Shown piece by piece: positions 9,147 through 64,000 of a DNA stretch of 64,000 nt (positions are counted from its first letter, which is position 1; each line of letters starts with the position of its first letter). This DNA is from Methanotorris igneus Kol 5 (GTDB taxonomy: Archaea; AGJL01; Methanococci; Methanococcales; Methanococcaceae). A program made the position numbers and the translations under genes. The DNA lies in the NCBI RefSeq assembly GCF_000214415.1, contig NC_015562.1, forward strand, positions 868,001 through 932,000, written 5' to 3'. The notes beneath the pieces were generated by a model that was not told where the DNA came from, searched no databases, and saw only the letters and a list, made by a program, of their open reading frames with translations.

Positions 9147-9725
9147 ATGGGAGATCCAAAAAAACCAAGAAAAAAATATGACACCCCAAACCATCCTTGG
9201 ATCAAAGAGAGAATTGAAAGAGAACATGAATTATGTAGAAAATATGGATTAGTTAATAAAAGAGAAGTTTGGAAGGCTGAAACAAAATTAAGAAACTACA
9301 GAAGACAGGCAAGAAGATTAATTAGCGACACAACAAAACAAGGTGCTAGAGAAGCACAACAATTATTTAATGTATTAAAAAGATACGGTATTCTCAAAAA
9401 AGAAAACCCAACATTGGATGACGTCCTTGCATTAACAATTGAAGATATCTTAGAAAGAAGATTACAAACAATTGTATTTAGAAAAGGTTTGGCAAGAACA
9501 ATAAAACAAGCAAGACAATTAATTGTCCACGGGCACATTGCTGTAAATGGTAGAAAAGTTACAGCTCCAAGTTACATGGTTACAGTAGATGAGGAAGACA
9601 CCATTGACTACGCACCAAACTCACCATTTGCTTCTAAGGATCATCCTGAAAGAGTAAAAATTATGAGTGTTGAAGCTAAAGAAGGAGAAGAAAGTCAAGA
9701 GCAAGTTTCTCAAACTACTCAATAA
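9147..9725 (+). CDS. rps4: ribosomal protein uS4
   Basis: Primary 16S rRNA-binding protein of the small-subunit body. The S4 RNA-binding domain is visible at about residues 105-170 ([20 protein letters not shown], then [10 protein letters not shown]). The tail is acidic and low-complexity ([11 protein letters not shown]). ATG 9147 is favoured: GAAGGTG lies 6 bases before it, and the in-frame GTG at 9138 is part of that site. Second gene of the rps13 cluster, in the standard archaeal order. Confidence 0.97.
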
Positions 9726-62315: not shown

Positions 62316-62594
62316 TTAATCACCATTGAACTTATATAAAATAATAATGAACAATAAAATTTTATGAAATACATAATGATATTCATTCGAAATTCGTTAA
62401 GTTTTTTAATATTTAAATACGATTTCAAAACTCTTTATATACCAATATCAAAGGTTAGATTATACTATTGGACAAAAGTATAAATAATTTGTGATTTTTT
62501 TGCTTTTAAAAAAGGAATATGCCTTATATAAAGTATTTAAAGGTCTGTAATAAGTATTCCATCAATATGAAAAAATAAAAAAATCTATCAATCT

Positions 62595-62830
62595 ATGGTT
62601 GTGTGCGTTAAAGTTTAGACAAAACCTCAATAAAATTTTTGGTTGATTTATATTTGTTTTAATTTTTAAGGGCTTATGAGAGTTTTAAAAATCTATTATG
62701 CACTTTTTATGGCAAAACCAAAGGTTTTGGTATATAAGTCAACTTTATACACCTCTTGGTTTTGTTTTTAGGTGACATCATCACACCCATCCATTTTATT
62801 ACAAACGACTCAAATTACACCATTTATACC
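62595..62830. repeat. palindromic repeat, family A (copy 4, degenerate)
   Basis: Left terminus ATGGTTGTGTGCGTTA (about 62599), the AATTTTTAAGGGCTTATG core shared with copies 2 and 3, the hairpin GGCAAAACCAAAGGTTTTGGTATA (62710-62735, given as positions beyond the first stem), and a right end ACAAACGACT (62802-62811). The rest of the 625-base gap between nrdD and carS (62316-62594, 62831-62940) holds nothing recognisable apart from AT-rich promoter-like DNA. Confidence 0.55.
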
Positions 62831-62940
62831 ATATTAATATAATATCATTCATAATCATTGTAGTAATCTATATTTAAGTTGGGTATCAAAGCATATTTTC
62901 GATCAAATTATTACTCTCCATAATTTACAAAATATAGCTA

Positions 62941-63590: not shown

Positions 63591-63605
63591 AAATTTAAAT
63601 ATATG
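63591..63605 (+). promoter_or_regulatory. TATA-like box before the G-rich island
   Basis: ATAAATTTAAATATA, about 25-40 bases before the first G run. It would place a start site near 63628, where the base composition changes abruptly. Confidence 0.45.
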
Positions 63606-63627
63606 GATTAATACTTCATTTAAAAAA

Positions 63628-63802
63628 ATTGTGAGGGGGAGGGGGCAAAAAATAGATTGGGGGGAGGGGGATTTTGAGTAAATTCTCTTGGGGGGTATGA
63701 GGGGGGTGGGAATGGTATTAGGAGGCATGCCTCCAGCACGGTGTTATCAGCAGTGAGGTGGGGGGATGGGGGATGCTCTCACTGCTATCCCACACCGTGC
63801 CG
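63628..63802 (+). ncRNA. candidate G-rich structured RNA
   Basis: Six or more runs of 5-6 G occur between 63635 and 63710, then a perfect 14-bp palindrome GGAGGCATGCCTCC (63721-63734), then a long hairpin: 63736-63744 with 63792-63800 (GCACGGTGT/ACACCGTGC) and 63749-63757 with 63778-63786 (AGCAGTGAG/CTCACTGCT), both perfect 9-bp stems around a G-rich 20-base loop. No coding frame fits. In DNA this AT-rich such an island is unlikely by chance. The family is not recognised. Strand is inferred from the upstream TATA-like box. Confidence 0.5.
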
Positions 63803-64000
63803 CTATATCCATTAACATTTCTAATATATAAAATTTACGGTTAAACATCTTTGATTTAAATTAAATGTTATTTTACGCAAACCTAAAATTTATCATAAAT
63901 TAATTTTTGGGACAATTAGAAGCTCCAAGTATATATAATAACCCTCATTAAAAAATTTAAGGATATACATTTTTATAATAAGGTGAGTGAATTTATAGAG
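63803..64000. other. AT-rich end of window, possible start region of a further gene
   Basis: No reading frame is completed here. AAGTATATATAATAAC at about 63930 could be a TATA box and AAGGTGAG at 63982-63989 a ribosome binding site on the plus strand, so a gene probably begins at or just beyond the edge. Confidence 0.35.

Follow-up and report, generated by a model that had tools for sequence, protein, structure and literature searches.

A G-rich island and the strand opposite it

The DNA analyzed here, referred to below as the window, is the whole 64-kb stretch G000:C1:868001-932000 of a single-contig archaeal genome of 1,854,197 bp. Near its right end lies a G-rich island, and the question is what kind of element occupies it. 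The island (63635-63772) is strongly non-random: it holds eight of the 18 runs of ≥5 G in the window, with start positions from 63635 to 63768 (∼140 bp), and the densest other 203-bp stretch on either strand contains at most two such runs. The GC content is 50% across 63600-63799 vs. 20-40% for most of the flanking 6 kb, where a tRNA cluster forms the other GC peak.

The original prediction had described a G-rich, quadruplex-prone island with a hairpin, placed downstream of a TATA-like box. The island is real and every piece described there exists. The runs of 5-6 G are present, but they number eight, not the six given as a minimum; the 14-nt palindrome GGAGGCATGCCTCC and the two stacked stems (9 and 10 bp) were found as well (Table 1). 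Two choices had to be revised. The G-rich strand serves as the template for a predicted C-rich RNA, and the relevant TATA box lies on the opposite side of the island, on the minus strand. We concluded that the island is almost certainly the reverse side of a gene for a stand-alone small RNA, structured and C-rich, transcription of which is predicted from the features listed in Table 1.

Table 1. Coordinates of the predicted small RNA gene, its parts and the adjoining carS gene (window positions; RNA letters on the minus strand)
Feature	Position	Strand	Basis or remark
Promoter TATA box AAATTTTATATATTAG	63821-63836	-	TATA proper 63825-63832; 3' end 24 nt before the first stem base
Small RNA gene, ∼154-nt predicted transcript	63647-63800	-	Covariance model match, fold z, TATA spacing, T run
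Predicted RNA ends	5' end 63800; 3' end at U6, 63647-63652	-	3' end presumed
P1 lower stem, 5' arm GCACGGUGU	63792-63800	-	Pairs with 63736-63744
Internal loop, 5' side GGGA	63788-63791	-	Invariant; alignment
P1b upper stem, 5' arm UAGCAGUGAG	63778-63787	-	Fold and covariation
C-rich apical loop, 20 nt, AGCAUCCCCCAUCCCCCCAC	63758-63777	-	Single-stranded in MFE
P1b upper stem, 3' arm CUCACUGCUG	63748-63757	-	Fold and covariation
Internal loop, 3' side AUA	63745-63747	-	AUG or AGG in two orthologues
P1 lower stem, 3' arm ACACCGUGC	63736-63744	-	Fold and covariation
P2 small hairpin GGAGG-CAUG-CCUCC (the 14-nt palindrome)	63721-63734	-	Fold and relatives
Tail C-run module AUACCAUUCCCACCCCCCUCAUACCCCCC	63690-63718	-	Methanococcaceae comparison
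Distal C-run module and T6 terminator-like end CCCCCUCCCCCCAAUCUAUUUUUU	63647-63670	-	Similar end in many relatives
carS, CDP-archaeol synthase, PF01864	62941-63480	-	Pfam E 5e-73

Fold, covariation and the choice of strand

On the minus strand, the segment 63647-63800 has a fold well beyond chance (z -5.6; 0/200 dinucleotide shuffles), and its MFE and centroid structures are identical. The plus strand of the same segment folds moderately (z -2.3, dinucleotide shuffles). The orthologue in G028, which we take to be M. jannaschii, has the same predicted fold (z -5.4); this copy is placed at G028:C1:1129140-1129196 on the minus strand. In the alignment of 16 distinct orthologues, 97.7% of the stem cells are paired and 11 of 19 stem pairs carry a double-sided change; across relatives such changes affect 5/9 pairs of the P1 lower stem. 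The covariation score is 0.525, compared with 0.237 ± 0.023 for shuffled alignments (0/500 shuffles as high), and sliding the pairing partner destroys the signal. The P2 arms also co-vary in relatives (AGAGG/CCUCU, GAGAU/AUCUC and GGAGC/GCUCC). The original prediction had staked its hairpin on stem conservation in relatives; both the covariance search and the covariation find the stems conserved.

The strand was assigned from wobble pairs. Read as minus-strand RNA, the alignment holds 35 G-U pairs vs. 3 A-C cells (equal to plus-strand G-U), and because of this 35:3 ratio we read the RNA from the minus strand. Plus-strand RNA was rejected on the same count together with its weaker fold, and the count also argues against a DNA cruciform as the selected form. 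The 5' end of the hairpin is constant among orthologues; loops and tails vary. A pseudoknot between GGGA and UCCC, both nearly invariant, is possible.

The wobble count also bears on the quadruplex idea, that the plus strand acts as a G-quadruplex element in DNA or RNA. The eight runs within ∼140 bp invite this reading, and G4Hunter reaches 2.4 on the G-rich strand. However, the pairing evidence favours the other strand, the conserved promoter is directed away from the plus strand, and the strict four-run G3 motif is missing from the G-rich strand in 12/19 orthologues (including all Methanocaldococcus copies) and was found in 0/19 on the RNA strand. The quadruplex is thus not conserved, and as an explanation of the island it is extremely improbable. 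As a side effect, the DNA of the template strand could still form a quadruplex.

Promoter, predicted ends and the carS gene

The 3' end of the TATA box lies 22-25 nt ahead of the first P1 base in all 19 orthologues, which is the spacing expected for archaeal initiation. Since this distance is constant, the first P1 base is the predicted 5' end of the small RNA. The box reads CGAAAAGTTTATATA in several relatives, and the promoter closely resembles that of a tRNA-Cys in the window. The RNA would end at a run of T5-T8 located ∼120-155 nt downstream in most genomes; under the rule used, some copies in Methanococcus and Methanothermococcus extend further, to a run at 218-265 nt. Many relatives have a similar combination of C run and T run at this end. 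No long conserved open frame was found in the small RNA: the longest stop-free stretch is ≤50 codons and its frame differs between orthologues.

The downstream neighbour in the window is carS, on the same strand, as in many Methanococcaceae, and the small RNA could on that ground be taken for a cis-acting leader of carS, either a riboswitch or a thermosensor. The arrangement is not kept across genomes: in Methanocaldococcus and some Methanococcus the downstream gene encodes a DUF4013 or DUF2099 protein instead, which argues against a carS riboswitch, and carS is preceded by a T6 run and a TATA-like box of its own. We therefore rejected the carS leader, which we consider most improbable. The original prediction had proposed comparing carS neighbourhoods in relatives; the constant neighbour that emerged is hdrA, not carS.

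On the far side of carS, a long AT-rich intergenic stretch (62316-62940) separates it from an anaerobic ribonucleotide reductase gene. This stretch contains an apparent inverted repeat near 62712-62765 (CCAAAGGTTTTGG ... CCTCTTGGTTTTG) and carries no assigned feature.

Distribution among Methanococcales

The relatives of the window genome are Methanococcales, with Methanocaldococcus and Methanothermococcus among the record names. A search with a covariance model built on the P1 hairpin detected exactly one strong copy of the small RNA in 24/36 Methanococcales genomes, with E values of 5e-6 to 7e-15; the model was built from 18 sequences, which match by construction. The window copy scored 74.5 bits (E 7.5e-15) against this model, which includes the window sequence. 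Independent matches came from five genomes (G005, G022, G026, G030 and G035), all missed by BLAST at E ≤ 1. A sixth, G016, was also outside the model, but a near-identical congener was included. The small RNA is absent from several Methanococcales lineages, and no homologue was detected in 23 genomes of another archaeal phylum or in the neighbourhood of HdrA relatives from other archaea and from bacteria.

Most Methanococcales genomes examined share this structured RNA, and two model species, M. jannaschii and M. maripaludis, appear to be among them. With genetically tractable relatives at hand and natural losses in some lineages, its role in a methanogen is directly testable.

The divergent hdrA gene and the selenocysteine trait

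A selenocysteine-containing hdrA is the divergent neighbour in 23 of the 24 genomes with the small RNA, that is, at all loci that could be checked; in G022 the small RNA and hdrA lie near the ends of different contigs. The in-frame TGA (selenocysteine) stands at codon 197 at every intact locus. In the genome studied here, hdrA lies just outside the window. The small RNA thus has a fixed position beside a selenocysteine gene of core methanogenesis. Eight genomes keep Sec-hdrA yet have no small RNA, so the RNA is dispensable. From the synteny and these eight genomes it follows that the small RNA is tied in place to hdrA and not required for selenocysteine use.

Three of the genomes differ in local gene order. 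In G011, G013 and G018 (L063, L058 and L060), carS lies near hdrA in reversed orientation and the small RNA is gone; loss at these loci therefore goes with local rearrangement.

The complete genome G012 (1,714,918 bp; L066 and L110) has no tRNA-Sec over the cut-off, only Cys-type HdrA and no small RNA. It is the sole complete genome without tRNA-Sec, and it belongs to a genus that otherwise uses selenocysteine; this is a recent loss of the Sec trait along with the small RNA. Strict co-occurrence with the Sec trait, tempting from G012, is ruled out by the eight Sec-hdrA genomes that have no small RNA.

A looser link is that the small RNA is a selenium-linked regulator of Sec-hdrA, or of a switch between Sec and Cys isoenzymes. 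The constant divergent neighbour at intact loci and the joint absence of tRNA-Sec, Sec-hdrA and small RNA in G012 are consistent with this link. So is a contrast among 32 genomes: those with both Sec- and Cys-type HdrA have the RNA in 12/12 cases, and those with Sec-HdrA alone in 12/20 (p ∼0.01, uncorrected for kinship or genome size). Presence and absence on the HdrA tree require at least 3 changes, and with only 3 changes the co-occurrence of RNA and Sec may reflect shared ancestry and synteny. The eight Sec-hdrA genomes without the RNA speak against a selenium regulator, and so does the hdrA start region, which ranks 35/70 for pairing with the small RNA; hdrA mRNA was rejected as a special target on that rank. 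We regard such a selenium regulator as improbable.

C-run modules and a possible mode of action

Each small RNA contains 3-7 runs of 4+ C vs. 0-1 runs of 4+ G. Every orthologue has a C run in the apical loop, where CCCCC is invariant in the alignment. The Methanococcaceae tail AAUCCCAUUCCCACCCC is nearly constant in sequence and the stems change by compensation; in most Methanococcaceae the tail module reads AAUCCCAUUCCCACCCCYCAUA. Beyond the stems, the conserved parts are the internal loop GGGA/AUR and the C-run modules in single-stranded places. This pattern of conservation is as expected of a trans-acting RNA that touches its partners through C runs.

We tentatively propose that the small RNA acts in trans, with C-run modules predicted to pair with G-rich ribosome-binding regions. 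The hairpins would protect and present single-stranded C-run modules in the apical loop, the tail and the distal end. These modules could pair with several mRNAs at G-rich sites around the ribosome-binding region and in the early coding region, and so alter how stable the mRNAs are or how well they are translated; C-rich bacterial sRNAs such as RsaE/RoxS and the Methanosarcina sRNAs that target ribosome-binding sites serve as models. The small RNA shares its intergenic region with hdrA, the divergent selenocysteine gene, and the two may be under common control. A minus-strand small RNA gene combined with C-run pairing is our best explanation of the locus as a whole, with a probability of about 0.5.

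The C-rich segments form predicted duplexes of -20 to -30 kcal/mol with the G-rich start regions of some window genes. These energies are not specific, because any G-rich start region will do as a pairing partner for a C-rich RNA. Pattern searches gave no conserved near-exact target; the complements that recurred between genomes lay in the small RNA locus or at a conserved site in coding sequence that genomes without the small RNA have as well. Exact antisense targets of CCCCTCATACCCC and ATCCCATTCCCAC were discarded on these grounds: outside the locus, the matches fall in coding sequence and are not conserved, or they mark a site in an rfcS-like gene that RNA-less genomes have too. A search for 16-nt complements that allowed 3 mismatches gave counts similar to those of the reversed control or modestly higher, and the repeated matches resemble the complement of 5S rRNA, probably a chance resemblance of C-rich sequence. 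The Methanococcaceae tail AUCCCAUUCCC (63690-63718, minus strand) resembles an apparent conserved stretch of 5S rRNA, AUCCCAUCCC. This likeness is probably chance, and mimicry of 5S rRNA by the tail is no more than conceivable.

The main rival to antisense pairing is that the small RNA binds a protein recognizing C runs and titrates it or serves as its scaffold, as CsrB does for CsrA. The C-run motif is repeated, its number (3-7) and spacing differ between species, CCCCYCAUACCCC occurs in both the apical loop and the tail of several Methanococcaceae copies, and the pattern searches yielded no conserved antisense target, all of which would suit protein binding. Against this, no candidate C-run protein was found, and the near-constant tail of Methanococcaceae exceeds the length that a simple repeated protein site would need. 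Hfq was considered as the partner: the Hfq model matches only Methanocaldococcus and Methanotorris, including genomes without the small RNA, and none of the RNA-bearing Methanococcus, so Hfq does not co-occur with the RNA and an Hfq-dependent sRNA was rejected. Protein binding in place of base pairing is possible but rather doubtful. A broader version is less probable again: throughout the order, the C-rich RNA would titrate or scaffold a C-run-binding archaeal protein, or tune translation globally, and would be wired to selenium and heterodisulfide-reductase status through the shared hdrA intergenic region. Pairing through the C runs stays our working proposal for the small RNA.

Comparison with known RNA classes

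The original prediction saw no likeness to tRNA, RNase P, SRP or guide RNA and suggested an Rfam search; its impression agrees with our result, a structured element with no Rfam match at the gathering threshold. Neither this locus nor any of 17 orthologous loci gave a score above that threshold, and nothing credible appeared up to E = 10. Lax searches of the window and of the G028 and G003 orthologues returned chance-level matches only.

A class missed by the Rfam models, such as SECIS or a guide RNA of the box H/ACA or box C/D type, was weighed separately, as the small RNA adjoins a selenoprotein gene, its hairpin has an internal loop, and one orthologue reads CUGAUGA. The eaSECIS pattern used here has a GAA_A bulge with 3 G/C pairs above the bulge (PMC11227280), its stems being expected on the mRNA strand of the selenoprotein. 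It is absent from both strands of all 19 copies and was found after hdrA as a positive control (GGCGCCATCC-GAA-GGC-TCT-GCC-A-GGATGGCGCT), and SECIS was rejected. That canonical archaeal SECIS lies downstream of hdrA on the hdrA strand, at G000:C1 ∼934200-934235 (L002 near 9200-9235). Like an eaSECIS, the small RNA is a hairpin near a selenoprotein gene; it differs in lying on the opposite strand, upstream of hdrA, and in having no GAA_A bulge. For H/ACA, the 4 × 3 nt internal loop is too small for a pseudouridylation pocket, and the basal stem is followed by UGG/AGG/GGG-like sequence, not ACA. For C/D, there is no RUGAUGA, the CUGA sits inside stem P1b, and no Rfam C/D model matched over threshold. 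Membership in any of these classes is highly unlikely.

We classed the small RNA as a new family of archaeal intergenic small RNA that has no Rfam family. No description of it was found in the searchable literature. GC-content screens of M. jannaschii gave 18 (Schattner 2002) and 5 (Klein 2002) ncRNA candidates, according to a review (PMC3432209). Those candidates are likewise GC-rich islands in an AT-rich genome, and the M. jannaschii copy may be among them. The Hgc families of Rfam gave no match at the window locus or in its orthologues.

Two trans-acting systems offer the closest functional parallels to the proposed pairing. Methanosarcina sRNA154 is also an intergenic trans-acting sRNA of a methanogen and stabilizes nif-related mRNAs. 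No sRNA154 homologue was reported in Methanococcales (PMC9765008), and we found no sequence relation to the small RNA. RsaE/RoxS (RF01820) belongs to another domain of life, has another architecture and shares no homology; the RF01820 model gave 15.3 bits (E 3.3, gathering 79) against the distal region of one orthologue. The likeness to RsaE/RoxS lies in single-stranded C-rich motifs beside hairpins, for which pairing with G-rich ribosome-binding sites is expected.
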